From Clostridia bacterium (GTDB taxonomy: Bacteria; Bacillota; Clostridia; UBA1212; UBA1255): a stretch of DNA of 42,064 bases. The notes under the pieces are model-generated. The model was not told where the DNA came from, ran no database searches, and saw nothing but the letters and a program-made list of their open reading frames with translations. The position numbers and the translations under genes are program-made. Below are positions 13,295 through 42,064 of the stretch, piece after piece. The stretch covers positions 1-42,064 of the forward strand of contig JAGCTF010000238.1 of NCBI GenBank assembly GCA_017963755.1, given 5' to 3'. The number at the start of each line of letters is the position of its first letter. The first letter of the stretch is position 1.

Positions 13295-15250
13295 TTAATT
13301 GAAGTGTTTCCGCGCCGCATAATAAGCAGCAAATTTCAGCATAGCGTCGATGTTAATCGCGGTCTCCCACGGCCTGTACCTCGTCCCTTCCGGATAGCTC
13401 GCTATATACCTTTCTGCATACATATTTACGCCGTCACGCAGGTCAAGAAGTTTATTGAACACCGGTTCAGCACCTGGCAGCCCGTAATATAGAATATTAT
13501 ACAGTAAAAGACCGTAATCGTACCCTACGTTAAGTTCTGCTTCCGGCACTGAATAGGCAAAGCCGGAATCTGATACAGAGGCCGCAAGACGTTTTACTTC
13601 TTTGACGATGCTTTCTTTTATCTCGGGCAGATCGGCGCCGAGGTACGCAGGCATCAGCAAACTGCTAGGAAGACTTACTCTCCGGTCAATTTTACCGCGT
13701 TTTACACCTTTCGAGAGGCAGCCGGTACATAAATACGAGCGCTCAGGCGTAAGCCCGCTCCAGCCGAACGAGCCACAATTCATACATACTCCGTATCTGT
13801 ACGGCGGCAATTCTTTTTGTATATCCGGATCGTTTATGCAATATCGTCCCTCTTTAATAAATTTCGAAGAAAACGAACGCTTAACGCTCTCAACAGTCGC
13901 GCGCATTTCAGAAGTATCTTCCCCGCGTGAAACGAGATAATCGATCAGTTTTTCACCCGAACGTATAAAAAGCAGCGTTGCCTCCGCACTTCCGTCGGAA
14001 ACAGCGTCACGTGCGAGCAGGCCGCAGGCAATATAAGTCTCATCGCCGTTAAAAGGCAGTTCGTTGTCCGAGAGCTCCTGTACCTGGCAATTGTAAAGCC
14101 ATTTAAGAAACTTGATATTCTCATCAAGGATCGAACTGTCTCCGCTTACTGAAGCATATCTGAAGAACTGAAGCAGCAGGTAACCGGTGATCTCAACTTT
14201 ATCATTCTCGGCAAAATGAAACAGACCGTTCACGCCGATCCCCTGAGCGTTAAGGATCTTACCGTTCCGGTTGAAAGTATCACAATAGAAGCGCAGAATA
14301 TTGCCCGCTTCTTTAACAAGCCCGAGACTTATAAGTCCCTCTGCGACGCCGTACTGATCGCGCACGTATCCGAGATGATACGCATGTCCCGCCAGCACTC
14401 CGCCTTCCGCACCTTGCTGAACGAGTATACCGATCACCGCATCGTCGATCGCCGCTATAAATTCGTCGCGTCTCGGAAGCTCATCAGGTATAGACAGATG
14501 CGCATCGACCCGGTCAAAGATCTGCGACCATTTCGTTGTAAATGATTTAAGAATGGTTCCGGCGTCAATACCTTTAAGAAGATCATAATTTTCGCATGCT
14601 TCGGGATAGTCAGGCCCTCCGATAAGCATAAGATCCGCATCGCCTTTTACGTCAATAAGGATCGAAGAATTGCCTGCGATATGCAGCTTTGCGTTTCCGG
14701 AAGCGTGCAAAATATAAAACTGCGGGAAAGGAAGCGGATAATCGTTGTAAATATAATTACCGCACCTGCTCTTAATGAGTATCGCGCCGGTATCTTTATG
14801 CGGAATGATATAATCGATCATCCCACTGTTCCCTGATAATACTAACTTTAAAGAACCGCTTCCGGACCAAGCCATCTGTCTGATAAGAACCGGGAGTTCA
14901 GGATGTACGAAATCCGTTATTTCTCCCCTTCCGGAATCCTTATCCTCTGCAGAGACAGTCCATACCGGTGCGCGGAAACGGCGCTCAGGTACTCCGGTGA
15001 TAACGTTTCCTTGAAACGCAGACGTAAAGAGCGACGGAGAAGAATAAGGCGGTCCGAAGATCTCGTAGACGTTGCCGTACAGAAACGTGGCGGCGATCTT
15101 TCCGTTTCCGGTCATATAATAGAGCCTGCCGTCTCTTTCTCCGCGCGCATCGTTTACATCCGCGTTATTACTTTGTCCGCTGCTTCCGTATGCGCTTTTT
15201 CTGTACGCGCTTCCGGCCATTCCTCTAAAGCACTCAGTCGATCCTTTCAT
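13295..15250 (-). CDS. Six-hairpin glycosidase-like protein with zinc-ribbon insertion
   Basis: A 651-residue protein. Residues up to about 250 look beta-rich; the rest looks like an (alpha/alpha)6 glycosidase barrel (GHAYHLGYVRDQYGVAEG, FNGDETYI, YRPWETAIN). Inside the barrel is a C-x2-C-x15-C-x2-C signature (Cys489, 492, 508, 511; CMNCG and CTGC), as in zinc ribbons, which is rare in this fold. No CAZy family could be named. I chose the ATG at 15250: GGGAGGGG lies ten bases upstream and it overlaps the PHP gene by 17 bases; a start at 15313 would overlap by 80. No signal peptide, so cytoplasmic. Probably hydrolase or phosphorylase; not certain. Confidence 0.68.
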   Translation of the reverse strand: MKGSTECFRGMAGSAYRKSAYGSSGQSNNADVNDARGERDGRLYYMTGNGKIAATFLYGNVYEIFGPPYSSPSLFTSAFQGNVITGVPERRFRAPVWTVSAEDKDSGRGEITDFVHPELPVLIRQMAWSGSGSLKLVLSGNSGMIDYIIPHKDTGAILIKSRCGNYIYNDYPLPFPQFYILHASGNAKLHIAGNSSILIDVKGDADLMLIGGPDYPEACENYDLLKGIDAGTILKSFTTKWSQIFDRVDAHLSIPDELPRRDEFIAAIDDAVIGILVQQGAEGGVLAGHAYHLGYVRDQYGVAEGLISLGLVKEAGNILRFYCDTFNRNGKILNAQGIGVNGLFHFAENDKVEITGYLLLQFFRYASVSGDSSILDENIKFLKWLYNCQVQELSDNELPFNGDETYIACGLLARDAVSDGSAEATLLFIRSGEKLIDYLVSRGEDTSEMRATVESVKRSFSSKFIKEGRYCINDPDIQKELPPYRYGVCMNCGSFGWSGLTPERSYLCTGCLSKGVKRGKIDRRVSLPSSLLMPAYLGADLPEIKESIVKEVKRLAASVSDSGFAYSVPEAELNVGYDYGLLLYNILYYGLPGAEPVFNKLLDLRDGVNMYAERYIASYPEGTRYRPWETAINIDAMLKFAAYYAARKHFN

Positions 15251-16031
15251 AAACAGGTTTCCCCTCCCTGAAGTGTGCGATATGATCGAATCCGCAATAT
15301 TTGATGAGTTCAACCGCGGCTTTGAAATTCCTGCCTATCCTGTCAGCCTTATGAGCGTCAGAGCCGATCACGACCGTTTCGCCGCCGGCGTTTTTATACG
15401 CTTTTAACATTTCAAGATCCATCGGAGTCTTATCGTAAGAGCGCGTATTGACCTCGAAAGCAAGCCCGTATCTTATCATTTGCCCGACGACCGTTTTTAA
15501 TTCATCGTAAAACTCGCGGAAGTAAATAGTATTGTCCCCGAACGGCGCGTATCTGACGACGTAATCAAAATGCCCCAGCGTATTAAAATCGTGATAAAGA
15601 TCTACGTTCGTGATAACTTCCCGCAAATACCTTCTGTACGCGTGAACACGCTCAGGTTCAACTTTAAAATACGTCCCGTCATACGGATCGATCCGGCTTA
15701 TAAGATGCGTTGAACCTATTTTATAATCGAAATCGTACCCCGAGAGCCTGCTGATATTCTCGCTGACAACGTGAGGCTGGAGCCCTACTTCAACAGCGGA
15801 CAATATCTCGAGCCGCCCTTCATATTCCGCTTTAACTTTGTCAACAGCTTCCAGATAGTCTCCGAAATCGTAATAGACGTCGCTGCCGTCCGCGAGGTAG
15901 TTTACGTCAAGATGGTCCGTAAACGCGATCCCGGAAAGGCCGAGCTCAAGCGCACGGTCTGCGGCCGCGGTCATTTCAAGCTCGGAGTCGAACGAAAACG
16001 TCGAATGAAGGTGCATGTCATATAAGATCAT
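15234..16031 (-). CDS. PHP-domain phosphoesterase (histidinol-phosphatase HisJ-like)
   Basis: A 265-residue PHP protein with the metal-binding series DMHLHSTFS at the N-terminus, FTDHLD near 42, EVG near 80, STH near 107, GHFD and SDAHK near 225. These are the usual PHP ligands, so it should be an active trinuclear metal phosphatase. HisJ-type histidinol phosphatases are the nearest match, but no his gene is nearby and the operon concerns glycans, so it may dephosphorylate a sugar phosphate. The ATG at 16031 follows the previous stop by one base and has TTTTGGAG upstream; the longer start at 16094 would overlap that gene and is rejected. Confidence 0.82.
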   Translation of the reverse strand: MILYDMHLHSTFSFDSELEMTAAADRALELGLSGIAFTDHLDVNYLADGSDVYYDFGDYLEAVDKVKAEYEGRLEILSAVEVGLQPHVVSENISRLSGYDFDYKIGSTHLISRIDPYDGTYFKVEPERVHAYRRYLREVITNVDLYHDFNTLGHFDYVVRYAPFGDNTIYFREFYDELKTVVGQMIRYGLAFEVNTRSYDKTPMDLEMLKAYKNAGGETVVIGSDAHKADRIGRNFKAAVELIKYCGFDHIAHFREGKPVYERID

Positions 16032-16032
16032 A

Positions 16033-17844
16033 TCAATTCTCCAAAATGCAGCGGTAGCAGAATCTGCCGTCAGGAGCGGTATCGCCGCGATCATAAAATT
16101 TCATGATATCGCCGTCGTCAACGGAATTGTCAGCCCACTTAAATTCAAACTCCTTTTTTAACCTTACGAGAGCCCGCGGCACTTTAAGTTCCAGCACGTT
16201 TCCGGTGACCCTCAGCATCGCTTCGCCGATCTGCTCGAACTTCCATTCATTGTCAACGAACACCTCGATCGATGCGTTGCCTCCGGACTGATGGCGGTTG
16301 ATAATATAATCGAATCCGTTCCAGCCGTTAGAATCATCGCAATCCGAATTAAGGAACAGATTCATCCAGTTGTCGCCCTGAGGCCCGGTTATATCTTCGC
16401 GGCAGCGGCAGTAAAAATAGATGTAATTTCCGTCTGCGCAAACTTTCATAGAAACCAGGTCGTTGCGGCCGGACGTATTCACGTAATGCGTATTCCCGCC
16501 GTTGCCGTCCCAGTCGCGGTGAGCAGTGTCATAAGGCGCGTCAAGGTACTCCGGAGTCACGTTTTCCCATTCGGCCGGATTCCCGTCTTCGATATTCATC
16601 TTTACGCAGCCCTTTACAGGTTCAGGAAGCGACGCACCTTTATAACGCCTCACGAGTTCGACGAGCTGGCAATAATAATTATCTCCGAATAACCCGTTCA
16701 CAGGTTCGAGGTCGCGGCTGAACTCGCCGTTGAAGTTGTCAACGAAATAGCAGTCGTTATAACCGTCGCCCGGGACAACAGTATAAGTGTTGGCAATTCG
16801 TTGTCCGTTCGCCGGGTTGTTTAACGTGCCCGGATGAGAGCCCCACCGTCCAGCGGTCCATTCATTCCAGCCGGTTATCATAAGTATCGGCGGATCTTTT
16901 TCGATGGCGTGATCCATCTGTTCACGAAACGCTCTTCCGACTCCCGAGAGACCGGAACTGAGTCCGAATCCCATGTCGCCTTTTTCAACGTTATCAGGCT
17001 GGCGGCCGTTCGAATAGCTTCTGCCGGCGTTCGTACCATAGCTGCCATTTACCCAGAATCCGCACATTGCGATCATCTGCTCAACGTTCCCGTCTTTATC
17101 CAGGCCCGGGCTCTGAGGATACATATCCGCCCACGGCCAGCAGTTTTTCCCGTCATTTTTGAGATACCAGCTTCCGGAACCGCCCTTCGTATAAGCCCAG
17201 CTGTGGCGGATCGTGAAGAAAGAACGGATCTCGTCCGGAAGCATTTCAGTCTCGTCCTCCGGCACTAAAATAAGCGGTTTATCCTGATAAATAAACCATA
17301 GATCGCTGTAATGACCGGGCTTATAGAGTTCGTCATAAAGTCTTTCAACAGTTTTTGCAGCGTGTGTATTTGTGATAAACATCACGTCGGGAGTACGGAG
17401 CCCTTCAGAACGCATCTCGGACCAGACGCGGAATATCATATTATACGTTTCAGGATAAGTGAGCGCGTTTGTTACGTCAAGGAAGATAAAATCTATTCCG
17501 GCCTCCACGAGCATCGAGGCGTGTTTTCTTAGGATCCAGGGATCGTCTGACCTGTAATACCCGAAATACGGCTCAGCCCAGTACTGCAGGTAGCCCATTG
17601 GAGCATTCAAAGAATCTGATTTTACCTTTTCTATCCCGCCATCGTTATAAGAGCGGGTGTGATCGATCAGCGGTGCTCCGGGATTATGATCGTGCCAGAT
17701 AAAATAGAACATTCCGGCAATCCGGTCTTTCCTCAATGCTGGATATGCCGCGGGATCCGACCGCCTTCTTATACCGTCCGTAAAAGGCCATGACTCCGGT
17801 CTGAGGTCAATATAGTTATTATTTGCTTTTTTCTGATCAGGCAT
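16033..17844 (-). CDS. GH71/GH99-like glycoside hydrolase with C-terminal CBM9-like domain
   Basis: A 603-residue protein. Residues about 40-410 resemble the GH71/99-like TIM barrel: MFYFIWHDHNPG near 46, AGIDFIFLDVTNA near 115, and ITGWNEWTAG near 323, with the conserved NEW segment. The C-terminal part (about 425-600; DGNYIYFYCRCRED, NLFLNSD) resembles CBM9/DOMON-type carbohydrate-binding beta-sandwiches. There is no signal peptide, unlike the paralogue at 9410-10495. It is the first gene of the right-hand unit, with AAGGGG upstream, and follows tyrS after an 88-bp gap that contains a large hairpin. Retaining endo-mannan activity is possible; the substrate is unknown. Confidence 0.75.
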   Translation of the reverse strand: MPDQKKANNNYIDLRPESWPFTDGIRRRSDPAAYPALRKDRIAGMFYFIWHDHNPGAPLIDHTRSYNDGGIEKVKSDSLNAPMGYLQYWAEPYFGYYRSDDPWILRKHASMLVEAGIDFIFLDVTNALTYPETYNMIFRVWSEMRSEGLRTPDVMFITNTHAAKTVERLYDELYKPGHYSDLWFIYQDKPLILVPEDETEMLPDEIRSFFTIRHSWAYTKGGSGSWYLKNDGKNCWPWADMYPQSPGLDKDGNVEQMIAMCGFWVNGSYGTNAGRSYSNGRQPDNVEKGDMGFGLSSGLSGVGRAFREQMDHAIEKDPPILMITGWNEWTAGRWGSHPGTLNNPANGQRIANTYTVVPGDGYNDCYFVDNFNGEFSRDLEPVNGLFGDNYYCQLVELVRRYKGASLPEPVKGCVKMNIEDGNPAEWENVTPEYLDAPYDTAHRDWDGNGGNTHYVNTSGRNDLVSMKVCADGNYIYFYCRCREDITGPQGDNWMNLFLNSDCDDSNGWNGFDYIINRHQSGGNASIEVFVDNEWKFEQIGEAMLRVTGNVLELKVPRALVRLKKEFEFKWADNSVDDGDIMKFYDRGDTAPDGRFCYRCILEN

Positions 17845-38176: not shown

Positions 38177-39115
38177 TCATCGTATATATTCGATCATAAA
38201 ATCATCAGTAACGTCTTTCACGCTTACGCGCAGGACTGACGAATCGGTCACAAGTCCGACCTGATCTTCAATAAAACCGATGGACACTTTATAAGTTCCG
38301 ATAAATTTCAATCCTGCAAGGAAGTCTTCGCTGCTCATCTCGCCCGGGATCCGGACGGTCTTGTTAACGAAATCGATCTCAAAAGTATCAGAAGTAAACG
38401 TCATTCCGCGGATATAAAGCTCGGCGAACTGGACCCATTTGTTCAGCATGTTGTTGTCAAAGAAATAGTAACGGACAACTTCCACCGGGCCGATATTAAT
38501 ATTGTCCGTCGTCTCATCAGAAATGCTCTTGGTGCTGCGGTCAACGACTTCGATAAATTCATTGCTCCCCGCAAGTTTTACCGCTACTTTATAGAAATAG
38601 ATCTTATTCAAGGTGTACCACCAGTTATCGAGGCGGTTGATATAAACAGGCACGCTGAAGTTAAAATCGAGCGTGAGGTCAAGGTCGTTATTAAGTACAG
38701 ACCAGTACGTTCTGTCGTCGCTGTCAAAGATATTAGCCAGAACGTTATCCTTGTATCCCGGATTAGCGTCGTCTGAAAAATAGCACAGGTCGCGGACACT
38801 TCCGGTTTCTTTATCAAGATAGTTTTTGAATTTAAGAGAATCCGTTTCCGGACGCGCAGTCGGAACTTCGGTGGGTTCGGGAGTAATGACCTCCGTAGGT
38901 TCTTCAGTAGGTTCTTCTGTCGGAACATCCGTCGCGGGCGCTTCGGTTATAACAGATGTAGGAGCAGTAATGTCGCCAGTCGGAGAAGAATCTGCGGTGG
39001 CGGGTTTAAGAGTCTGAGGGTCTATTACAGGATCTTTATTATCGTCTACGCTGCAGCCGGACGCACAGATCGCGATCATGACTGCGGCGATAAACAAAAT
39101 CAAAGCTTTTTTCAT
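38177..39115 (-). CDS. Lipoprotein with Pro/Thr linker and discoidin-like domain
   Basis: A 312-residue exported protein. The lipobox ASGC (Cys21) is good, so it is lipid-anchored. A Pro/Thr/Glu spacer (about 45-92) holds a domain away from the membrane. Residues about 95-235 resemble an F5/8-type C (discoidin, CBM32-like) beta-sandwich (NVLANIFDSDDRTYWS, then an IYIRG-like end), often sugar-binding. The last 70 residues resemble a small cell-surface repeat seen in clostridial proteins (IDFVNKTVRIPGEMSSEDFL). The start overlaps the PHP gene stop by four bases (ATGA) with GGAGG upstream. Its place in the hydrogenase cluster is unexpected. Confidence 0.72.
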   Translation of the reverse strand: MKKALILFIAAVMIAICASGCSVDDNKDPVIDPQTLKPATADSSPTGDITAPTSVITEAPATDVPTEEPTEEPTEVITPEPTEVPTARPETDSLKFKNYLDKETGSVRDLCYFSDDANPGYKDNVLANIFDSDDRTYWSVLNNDLDLTLDFNFSVPVYINRLDNWWYTLNKIYFYKVAVKLAGSNEFIEVVDRSTKSISDETTDNINIGPVEVVRYYFFDNNMLNKWVQFAELYIRGMTFTSDTFEIDFVNKTVRIPGEMSSEDFLAGLKFIGTYKVSIGFIEDQVGLVTDSSVLRVSVKDVTDDFMIEYIR

Positions 39116-39852
39116 AGGATCATACCTCCGGGAAGTGATCTGAGCGCTTCTATGATGCCTTTCGGTGAATTCTCACTCACTTCTAAAAGCGCTCCGGGAT
39201 CTGCAATAAACTGAGGATAATGCGCATCAGAAGCATGTATAAGAGTATATTTTTTCATAAACGGGAATTTTTCGTACAGTGCGTCCAGATCGCACTCGTA
39301 AGATATCTCGGCAAATTCCAGCGGATAATCAAACGGCATCGCGCCCAGATTTGAAAGGACGCTGAATGAATCGCGGTCAACGTGAGCCGGATATGCTATT
39401 CCGCCCATTTCAAGTACCATCGGGATCGCTTCATCGATGCTGAGCCCGGTAGGAGAAAGGAGCATATTGGGATAATAGCCGAGGATCTCGTCGTTCTCAT
39501 CCATTATCACCTGCTCGCCGAAAATTTCGGGTTTGTTCGGGATCTGCGTATAGGACTCGATGACGATCTTCTGAAATTCATCAAGTTTTTCAAGATCCGG
39601 GAAAAGGCAGACAACGTGGACTTCCTCGACAGTTTCCAGTTCCATTCCGGGGACAACGGTAATGCCGTACTCTTTTCCCGCCCTGACAGCCGCAGGAACG
39701 TTGAACGTGATATTATGATCGGTGAGGGCAATGGCATCCAGGCCTCCCAGAGCGGCAAGCCCGACCAGATTAGCCGGTGTCATTTCCATATCGCCGCAGG
39801 GCGACAGACATGAATGCATATGCAGATCGACACGGATGCCAAACTTTTCCAT
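39112..39852 (-). CDS. PHP-domain phosphoesterase of the hydrogenase cluster
   Basis: A 246-residue PHP protein. Metal ligands are visible in VDLHMHSCLSPCGDMEMTP (residues 8-26), LTDHN near 43, GMELETVEEVHV near 69, PAHVDRDSF near 158, and HASDAHYP near 211. PHP proteins of this subtype are regularly encoded beside [FeFe] hydrogenase and DRTGG genes in Clostridia, suggesting a signalling or cofactor-related role, but no substrate is known. It starts three bases after the DRTGG gene's stop with only a weak ribosome site, so translation probably depends on the upstream gene. It overlaps the next lipoprotein gene by four bases. Confidence 0.85.
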   Translation of the reverse strand: MEKFGIRVDLHMHSCLSPCGDMEMTPANLVGLAALGGLDAIALTDHNITFNVPAAVRAGKEYGITVVPGMELETVEEVHVVCLFPDLEKLDEFQKIVIESYTQIPNKPEIFGEQVIMDENDEILGYYPNMLLSPTGLSIDEAIPMVLEMGGIAYPAHVDRDSFSVLSNLGAMPFDYPLEFAEISYECDLDALYEKFPFMKKYTLIHASDAHYPQFIADPGALLEVSENSPKGIIEALRSLPGGMIL

Positions 39853-39855
39853 AGT

Positions 39856-40191
39856 TCAAATATTACCGTTGATAAGGTCGTGCGTTTTAATAACCGCGTC
39901 AGCAGCGCTGAGTTCGGTAGCTAAGATCGTGATCCCCTTCTCGTTTGCTCTCTCAGCAAGATTATCGTATATCTCGACGCCTTCGGGGATAACGATACAC
40001 GCAACGTCTACGAGTGAAGCGACGGCAAGGATATTGATATTATTCATTACCGTTACCCACATATCTCCGGTTTTGGCATGTGATATGACCCAGCTGAGCA
40101 GGTCGCAGGCGTAAAAACCTGTGATCTCGCGCTCACCGTCGCCGGTTAAAATTGAAAAGCCGAGTTTTTCAGCAACTTCTTTTACAGTCAT
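39856..40191 (-). CDS. DRTGG-domain protein
   Basis: A 111-residue single-domain protein resembling the DRTGG domain, found in serine-kinase-like and phosphotransacetylase-associated proteins and commonly encoded with [FeFe] hydrogenases. The pattern LLSWVISHAKTGDMWVTV, then NINILAVASLVDVACIVIPEG, fits that fold; the eponymous DRTGG residues are not kept. Ligand and function are unknown; nucleotide or metabolite sensing is plausible. It lies 29 bases after the hydrogenase gene with AGAGGT upstream of the ATG, within the same operon. Confidence 0.78.
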   Translation of the reverse strand: MTVKEVAEKLGFSILTGDGEREITGFYACDLLSWVISHAKTGDMWVTVMNNINILAVASLVDVACIVIPEGVEIYDNLAERANEKGITILATELSAADAVIKTHDLINGNI

Positions 40192-40220: not shown

Positions 40221-41540
40221 CTATCTTCCTTCAGACTTGTTGTCAAGCGTAGGAGGAAGCAGTCCTTCGAGTTCCATCATTTCTTTAGCGAGATTTCTGA
40301 CGCGGTCTTTAAGGACAAAGACACAGTCGGTAAGTTTCGCCTTACCGCGGACGATATCTTCCGAAAGTGCCCGGCACGTGGGCGCTCCGCATGCGCCGCA
40401 GTCAAGTGCCGGCAGCATCTGATAAAGTTCCTCCATGTCTCTGAGCTTCTGCATCGCTTTCGTGATATCTTCATCAAGTGTTGCGACGTCAATATGTTCG
40501 GGAGAACATTCAAATCCGGTATTTTCAAGTTCGGTGTCAGTTACTTCCTTGAGAAGTTTAGGAAGCATAGATTTGAATCTGAAATTACGTGTCCTCGCAA
40601 CGTACATATTTTCAACGGTGAGCGGCCCGCCCAGACAGCCTCCGGGACATGCAGCGGCTTCAATAAAGTCAACGTCGGTAAGCTTATCGTCCTCAAGCTG
40701 TTCAAGTATTTTGATCACGTTCTGGACGCCGTCAACGTATAATATTTTATCCGATTCGATCCCTTTCGCTTCTCCGCCGATCGTTGCCCATCTTACTCCG
40801 CTGAAACCGGCCTGCAGAATGTTAAGGGGCTCTTTTATTTTTCCCATCTGTTTGAGCAGCTTAAAATATAAACTCTTTATGGAAAAAACGCCGTTGACCG
40901 CCGACCTGCTGACTTCTATGGGATTTCTTACACTCGTCATTTTTGCGGCGCACGGTGAAATAAAGAATACTCCGATCTCGTCCGGTGTAACACCGGGATT
41001 CTTTTCGCAGAACTCACGCCTGGCATTGTCCGCGGAAACTTCCATAGGAGATTTTATCGGCATGATCTGCGGGATAAGGCTCGGGAATCTTACCTGTATG
41101 AGCCGTACGATCGCGGGACAGGCGGATGAGATCATCGGCCTCGTATCTTTGTTCTTTTCAAGATAAATATTGCTGGCTTTTGTTACGATCTCGGCGCCTC
41201 TTGCAACTTCGTAAACGTAATCAAAACCGATCATTTTAAGAGCGGTCATGATCTTATCGCGTCCGAATTTTGAAATATCGTACTGAAGATAGAGCGTAGG
41301 AGCCGGAAGTGCGATCGTATATTTGAAATCAGCCATCTTCTCGAGCGGATCAGTTACGGCTACTTTCGCCTTATAAGGGCACGTACGTACGCATTCACCG
41401 CAGTCGATACAGCGTTCTTTCATAATTCTAGCTTTACCTGACTGTACGCGGATAGCGTCTGTAGGACACTTCTTGATACAGTTGGTACAGCCTTTGCAGA
41501 GTTCTTCTTCTAATACGATAGAATGAAAATAGTCACTCAT
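40221..41540 (-). CDS. [FeFe] hydrogenase, putative sensory type (group C/D-like)
   Basis: A 439-residue cytoplasmic iron-sulfur protein. Two N-terminal [4Fe-4S] clusters use Cys15/18/21/25 and Cys44/47/50/54. The H-cluster domain has loop 1 ISSACPAIV (Cys141), loop 2 ISPCAAKM (Cys197, Lys200) and loop 3 EAAACPGGC (Cys298, Cys302). At Ala140 catalytic enzymes have the proton-transfer Cys, and loop 2 also differs from the MPCxxKxxE form. A C-terminal Fe-S motif (CGACGAPTC near 383-391) follows. There is no PAS domain. With anti-sigma-type, DRTGG and PHP neighbours it is probably an H2 or redox sensor rather than a bulk H2 producer. AAAGGT precedes the ATG. Confidence 0.9.
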   Translation of the reverse strand: MSDYFHSIVLEEELCKGCTNCIKKCPTDAIRVQSGKARIMKERCIDCGECVRTCPYKAKVAVTDPLEKMADFKYTIALPAPTLYLQYDISKFGRDKIMTALKMIGFDYVYEVARGAEIVTKASNIYLEKNKDTRPMISSACPAIVRLIQVRFPSLIPQIMPIKSPMEVSADNARREFCEKNPGVTPDEIGVFFISPCAAKMTSVRNPIEVSRSAVNGVFSIKSLYFKLLKQMGKIKEPLNILQAGFSGVRWATIGGEAKGIESDKILYVDGVQNVIKILEQLEDDKLTDVDFIEAAACPGGCLGGPLTVENMYVARTRNFRFKSMLPKLLKEVTDTELENTGFECSPEHIDVATLDEDITKAMQKLRDMEELYQMLPALDCGACGAPTCRALSEDIVRGKAKLTDCVFVLKDRVRNLAKEMMELEGLLPPTLDNKSEGR

Positions 41541-41556
41541 TATTTCAATACCTTTA

Positions 41557-41994
41557 TCAGCGGTTCATATAAACGATCAGCGTGATCTTCGTGCCTACTC
41601 CGACTTCCGATTCAACGTACATTTCGTCAGTATACCTTTTCATGTTCGGAAGTCCCATACCGGCGCCGAAACCCATTTCCCTGACAAGATTGGAAGCAGT
41701 TGACCAGCCCGGCTTCATGGCGTCTTCAACGCACGGAATTCCGGGGCCGTTATCGGATATGACGACTTTCACCATCTCAGGGGTGATCTCAACATCGGCA
41801 AATCCGCCGTTCGCATGGATAACGGCGTTGATCTCGGCTTCATACATCGCTATCGAAATGCGTTTTATGAGCTCGGGATTTACTCCGAGGCGGGTAAGTG
41901 TTTTTTTCACTCCGCTCGAAGCTTCTCCGGCAGTTGTGAAATCTTCCGCGTCAATATCATAATGCAGTTTTACGGTACTGTCGCTCAATTCCAC
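41557..41994 (-). CDS. Anti-sigma-type ATP-binding (HATPase) regulatory protein
   Basis: A protein of about 145 residues with a GHKL ATPase domain like SpoIIAB/RsbW kinases: N box MYEAEINAVIHA (about 50-61), G1 box ISDNGPGIP near 80, and G2 box GFGAGMGLPNMK near 107. Such proteins are typical partners of sensory [FeFe] hydrogenases and DRTGG proteins. The start is uncertain: GTG at 41994 (AAGG eight bases upstream) or TTG at 41988; a longer frame to a TTG at 42039 has no ribosome site. It lies 16 bases upstream of the hydrogenase gene. The operon may begin beyond the window. Confidence 0.82.
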   Translation of the reverse strand: MELSDSTVKLHYDIDAEDFTTAGEASSGVKKTLTRLGVNPELIKRISIAMYEAEINAVIHANGGFADVEITPEMVKVVISDNGPGIPCVEDAMKPGWSTASNLVREMGFGAGMGLPNMKRYTDEMYVESEVGVGTKITLIVYMNR

Positions 41995-42064
41995 CCCCCC
42001 CTGCCTTTTATGCCGTTGCTGTAAAGCAATCCGCAGCAAATAAACAGCGGCTGTTGTGTCGCTA

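Follow-up and report, generated by a model that had tools for sequence, protein, structure and literature searches.

A group D [FeFe] hydrogenase and its conserved ATPase, DRTGG and PHP gene neighbours in Clostridia

The window analysed here (42,064 nucleotides from a Clostridia bacterium) encodes a [FeFe] hydrogenase, HydS, which almost certainly belongs to group D (M2e) and lies in a conserved cassette with genes for an ATPase (AtpA), DRTGG proteins (Drt1 and Drt2) and a PHP-family phosphoesterase. The family of HydS, its residues, the gene linkage and the intactness of the active sites are established by our analysis. We consider a sensory role of HydS coupled to AtpA probable (about 0.6), a reading which rests on the published behaviour of TamHydS from Thermoanaerobacter mathranii, the characterised group D/M2e member (PMC8163306, PMC10407848, PMC13104023), and on the universal linkage of the two genes. 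The features concerned are the following.

39112..39852, minus strand: php, PHP-family metal-dependent phosphoesterase, 246 aa (Pfam 46.9 versus a cut-off of 26.4 bits; homologue alignment; AF2 model and PDB folds)
39856..40191, minus strand: drt2, stand-alone DRTGG protein, 111 aa (Pfam 26.4 versus 25.2; AF2 model; PDB fold matches)
40221..41540, minus strand: hydS, group D/M2e [FeFe] hydrogenase, 439 aa (Pfam; 87-sequence alignment; tree)
41557..41994, minus strand: atpA, SpoIIAB/RsbW-like HATPase_c_2 protein with intact N, G1 and G2 boxes, 145 aa (Pfam 44.7 versus 27.4 bits; homologue alignment)
41985..42062, minus strand: 3' end of drt1, last 26 codons of a DRTGG protein (the frame matches the end of an open reading frame at locus L138, which passes the DRTGG model)

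Class and active site of HydS

The first-pass annotation, made from the sequence alone, had given 40221-41994 as the span of the hydrogenase. The hydrogenase is present, but the span holds two genes, hydS (40221-41540) and the ATPase gene (41557-41994). The proposed domain content, with two ferredoxin clusters and a C-terminal Fe-S motif in the absence of a PAS domain, was confirmed by Pfam. The Fe_hyd_lg_C model matches HydS far beyond chance (126.7 bits versus a cut-off of 22.1), two Fer4 4Fe-4S motifs lie at the N-terminus, a PF04060 FeS domain at the C-terminus carries the Cx2Cx4Cx16C pattern (C381, C384, C389 and C406), and no PAS domain matched at E<=0.001. All four H-cluster cysteines (C141, C197, C298 and C302) are present, as is K200. 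Loop 1 reads SSACP, as first noticed, with A140 at the proton-transfer position and C141 as the H-cluster ligand; A140 aligns where an engineered Desulfovibrio entry of the PDB reads SACP. Loop 2 had been described as lacking both the usual Met and the Glu of the proton path. Met353 (CpI numbering) is indeed replaced, by Ser195, and HydS has no counterpart of the Glu stretch in the group A path, but that stretch is not part of loop 2. Moreover, loss of the group A proton path does not amount to loss of all proton transfer, because the Glu pair of the group D path is retained (E257 and E294, with D270 as well, corresponding to E252, E289 and D265 of TamHydS).

In a maximum likelihood tree of the H-domain, with groups assigned by domains and motifs rather than from a reference set, groups A, C and D are each recovered as a single clade, group B being represented by two rows only. 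The group D clade (support 100/100) unites the window HydS with those of Thermoanaerobacter wiegelii, Acetivibrio mesophilus and Christensenella. The idea of an atypical hydrogenase outside group A thus agrees with the phylogeny and with the pair Ala140 and Ser195 in place of Cys and Met. A catalytic group A identity was rejected on these same residues (Cys299 and Met353 in CpI) and on the position outside the group A clade; the group A model gives HydS 113.5 bits, far below its cut-off of 406.

The comparison originally drawn with the Thermotoga HydS group proved to be one group off, since tree, active-site signature and domains all point to group D. Thermotoga maritima HydS (group C/M2f, PMC10055695) does share with the window protein the Ala at the proton-transfer position, a C-terminal FeS motif, low activity and a putative sensory role. 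However, it carries a PAS domain, shows Gly at the M353 position and falls in a separate clade. The group C (M2f) relatives scanned combine this Gly with PAS matches, whereas the window HydS has Ser195 and no PAS match at the threshold given above, and a group C identity was rejected.

Ala140 is not peculiar to the window protein either, as it is the group D norm: of the 87 orthologues aligned, 84 have Ala and three have Ser at the C299 position, and 49 have Ser and 38 have Thr at the M353 position. HydS thus belongs to an already known type and is ordinary as a protein. The Ser variant of loop 1 (SSSCP) occurs only at loci of spirochaete MAGs (L080, L088 and L117). The group A hydrogenase HydA of the window's genome has Cys at the C299 position and Met353. 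We also observed that loop 1 of the trimeric-type HydA reads TSCSP (L070, L059, L092, L112, L061, L001 and most others), with Cys at the proton-transfer position and Ser where CpI has the ligand C300, in 45 of 53 long family members.

For residue comparisons with TamHydS, the T. wiegelii protein was used as a stand-in for its sequence, and a fair one, because all 17 of the TamHydS positions checked match at the published number. The window HydS resembles TamHydS in domain order, in Ala at C299 and Ser at M353, in the Cx2Cx4Cx16C motif and in its histidine kinase (HK)-like ATPase neighbour, and it has equivalents of E252, E289, D265, D378, D403, E392 and D393. It differs in Ile254 at S249, a moderately conserved residue of the group D proton path, in Gln33 at R32, in Ala at S384, and in Ala instead of Leu at M497. 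Two further differences lie outside the protein: in the window's genus, the cassette is located apart from hydABC, and HydEFG were not detected.

Cassette and partner proteins

The ATPase gene before hydS and the DRTGG and PHP genes after it, as first annotated, lie on the same strand and their products all pass the Pfam cut-offs. The atpA gene begins with a GTG codon behind a G-rich ribosome-binding site, and its start is overlapped by drt1 at the window edge. The main part of drt1 lies beside valS on another contig (C252, locus L138), an order that is also found in sister genera. The matching ends make it most likely that the cassette is complete in the window's genome and merely divided between two contigs.

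Linkage was scored by profile searches at 91 HydS loci, with genes beyond contig ends scored as undetermined. These loci comprise the 80 top-scoring matches of the scan and relatives of the window's genome, and the counts are therefore not phylogenetically independent. AtpA is encoded upstream of HydS at all 88 scorable loci, Drt upstream at 82 of 86, Drt downstream at 80 of 89 and PHP at 82 of 86; the complete order Drt1-AtpA-HydS-Drt2-PHP was found at 74 of the 81 loci where every member could be judged. The suggested neighbourhood of hydrogenase, ATPase, DRTGG and PHP genes consequently holds as a conserved gene linkage. At 45 of 64 loci, HydB is encoded downstream of HydS and no more than 8 kb away. 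The most frequent arrangement is Drt1-AtpA-HydS-Drt2-PHP-HydC-AtpK-2Fe2S-HydB-HydA; the window's genome has hydC, AtpK, hydB and hydA on a different contig (C127). Spirochaetal loci retain HydS and mostly AtpA, while Drt and PHP are absent at three out of four. Most loci devoid of both are spirochaetal (including L080 and L117), with one clostridial exception (L072).

AtpA shares with the anti-sigma kinases SpoIIAB, RsbW and RsbT the HATPase_c_2 fold and intact ATP-site motifs, and the ATP site is invariant in 71 homologues (E75 and N79 of the N-box, D104, G106, G108, G133, G135 and G137). It falls well below the NCBIfam equivalog cut-offs of SpoIIAB and RsbW, scoring 56.7 bits versus 135 for SpoIIAB and 27.6 versus 145 and 25.1 versus 155 for RsbW and, unlike these systems, the cassette contains neither a sigma factor nor a STAS protein. 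The AF2 model of Drt2 (pLDDT 97.4) matches DRTGG folds of the PDB (E of about 1e-5, TMq 0.71-0.76), namely those of CBS pyrophosphatase (3l2b, 3l31), AF1212 (2ioj) and the N-terminus of HPr kinase (1ko7). In contrast to those domains, the Drt proteins are stand-alone and exist as two divergent copies flanking atpA-hydS. D30 and S33 are identical in every aligned Drt1 and Drt2, the invariant Ser being Ser33 in Drt2 and Ser36 in Drt1. The putative metal ligands of the PHP protein (H11, H13, E71, H79, H157, D209 and H211) are invariant in 75 homologues. Since the solved structures closest to it in fold are those of nucleases and nucleotide phosphoesterases, and not protein phosphatases, a protein phosphatase activity is a guess. 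A second PHP-domain gene of the window (15234-16094, 286 aa, 79.8 bits) is found among genes of carbohydrate-degradation type, unlinked to hydS.

Part of this arrangement was known. In 2013, a histidine kinase gene and a group D-like gene were described upstream of a bifurcating hydrogenase in Thermoanaerobacter (PMC3608648). In 2020, group D was proposed to be sensory, with an HK-like ATPase neighbour and a position upstream of HydABC, and the way in which a PAS-less group D hydrogenase transfers its signal was posed as an open question (PMC8163306). In the open-access literature, the scope of our search, we found no description of DRTGG or PHP partners of a group D hydrogenase; open full texts yielded a single passing co-mention of DRTGG and hydrogenase, and nothing linking PHP, kinase and hydABC. 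An AraC gene has been reported beside hydS of T. mathranii. The gene following hydS in T. wiegelii (L070:11309-11644) encodes a DRTGG protein of 111 aa that shows a weak PucR-like match and lacks the helix-turn-helix of AraC; judging from this relative, the AraC annotation may be a misannotated DRTGG gene.

Undetected maturases in the window's genus

The window's genus is represented by seven genomes (G000-G006; completeness 94, 95, 96, 70, 88, 88 and 82), and model searches detected HydG, HydF and HydE above threshold in none of them, whereas all three were found in 9/9 genomes of the sister genera (g2-g4), albeit with only a fragment of HydF in G007. In the window's own genome (G000), HydG is absent even at E<=0.001, and the HydF model matches GTPase domains only. 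If losses are independent, one locus would go undetected in all seven genomes with a probability of about 1e-7, but losses during binning need not be independent. The pattern extends further: all three maturases are absent from 21 of the 35 sampled genomes with an Fe-hydrogenase domain, ten of these 21 being at least 90% complete. Besides G000-G006, the maturases were undetected in G016, G018, G020 and G022-G030, and most maturase-less genomes carry intact [FeFe] hydrogenases. Sampling across the order for HydG brought no further genomes. In maturase-less genomes, 16 hydrogenase neighbourhoods contained one radical-SAM-like motif and no visible replacement maturase.

Binning may drop the maturation genes systematically, or maturation may follow another route; both are unproven. 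Lost replicons are the simpler reading, because in other anaerobes HydG can be carried by megaplasmids and by records submitted as plasmids, and it is present in all eight named cultured HydS-bearing strains searched. It is improbable that in the window's genus, and perhaps in related families, intact HydS and HydA work without HydEFG, via an undescribed di-iron route or with the cofactor in another state. In the literature searched, we found no report of bacterial hydrogenases without maturases. Exceptions to the need for HydEFG are known to us only from protists, for example Giardia and Entamoeba.

The failure to detect HydEFG nonetheless raises doubt that HydS obtains its di-iron site in this genus. 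At the extreme, HydS would never receive the subsite and would be an apo redox sensor with [4Fe-4S] clusters only, in line with the contrast between the seven genomes of the genus and the nine of its sisters. We regard this as very unlikely: the maturase genes may just have dropped out of the bins, and HydS shows no decay, with only V8I and I272V at positions otherwise invariant in maturase-bearing genomes and a low dN/dS (about 0.05, with dS saturated). HydA is likewise intact and under strong purifying selection (dN/dS 0.02-0.04), which suggests that the di-iron pocket is still in use.

A possible sensory function

TamHydS combines low turnover with a raised affinity for H2, and a sensory function has been proposed for it (PMC8163306, PMC10407848, PMC13104023); the combination of an H2-induced structural change with low turnover is known for TamHydS only (PMC8163306, PMC13104023). 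By analogy, HydS would act as a low-turnover sensor of H2 or redox state, with H2 reacting at the H-cluster. Without the Cys299-based group A path, protons would travel via E257 and E294, so that turnover would be slow and the reduced state would persist. The reduced or conformationally changed HydS may then control AtpA, present at every scorable locus, which would phosphorylate a partner, possibly at the invariant Ser common to both DRTGG proteins. The PHP phosphoesterase could turn the switch back or have a nucleotide signal as its substrate, and the target would probably be the bifurcating hydrogenase HydABC or its operon. The roles of AtpA as immediate partner, of Drt as its substrate, of PHP in resetting and of HydABC as target are inferred; the specific relay from AtpA to Drt, with reset by PHP and HydABC as target, is tentative and on balance doubtful. 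The nuclease and nucleotide phosphoesterase folds nearest to PHP, the spirochaetal loci lacking Drt and PHP, the separation of the cassette from hydABC and the non-detection of HydEFG in this genus all count against the sensory reading as a whole.

HydS might instead be a slow catalytic enzyme of metabolism, surrounded by unrelated members of an operon, and TamHydS indeed turns over H2 in both directions (PMC8163306). This is unlikely in view of the invariable presence of AtpA upstream, the very low specific activity of TamHydS (PMC10407848) and the standard group A HydABC encoded by the same genome.

Somewhat less improbable, though still doubtful, is that HydS reports ferredoxin or the general redox state and not H2, the H-cluster only setting the potential and AtpA reading the redox state. 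The two conserved N-terminal clusters and the C-terminal one could exchange electrons with the cellular pool and, under H2, the N-terminal cluster of a group D enzyme is reduced while the C-terminal one is not (PMC13104023). Rex-like boxes also tie some operons to NADH status: matches of at least 13/14 to TTGTTAA-N4-TTAACAA precede Drt1 at four of 80 loci (L056:8994-9011, L058:8929-8946, L062 and L063), with about zero expected from a rough shuffle. Similar boxes occur nearby at L068 and L075; across these clostridial loci, the boxes lie before the cassette or within the operon. On the other hand, all residues binding the H-cluster, like the adjacent group D proton path, are strongly conserved, and a plain ferredoxin sensor would have no need of them.

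The group D proton path (PMC10407848) and the C-terminal cluster (PMC13104023) have already been probed by published mutation work. The cassette described here should be useful as a test system. The maturase anomaly is the most interesting lead, albeit unproven; if true, the rule that HydEFG are required by bacterial [FeFe] hydrogenases would be called into question. Finally, the partner set conserved across Clostridia, always with AtpA and mostly with two DRTGG proteins and PHP, provides a short list of candidates for signal transfer by HydS.
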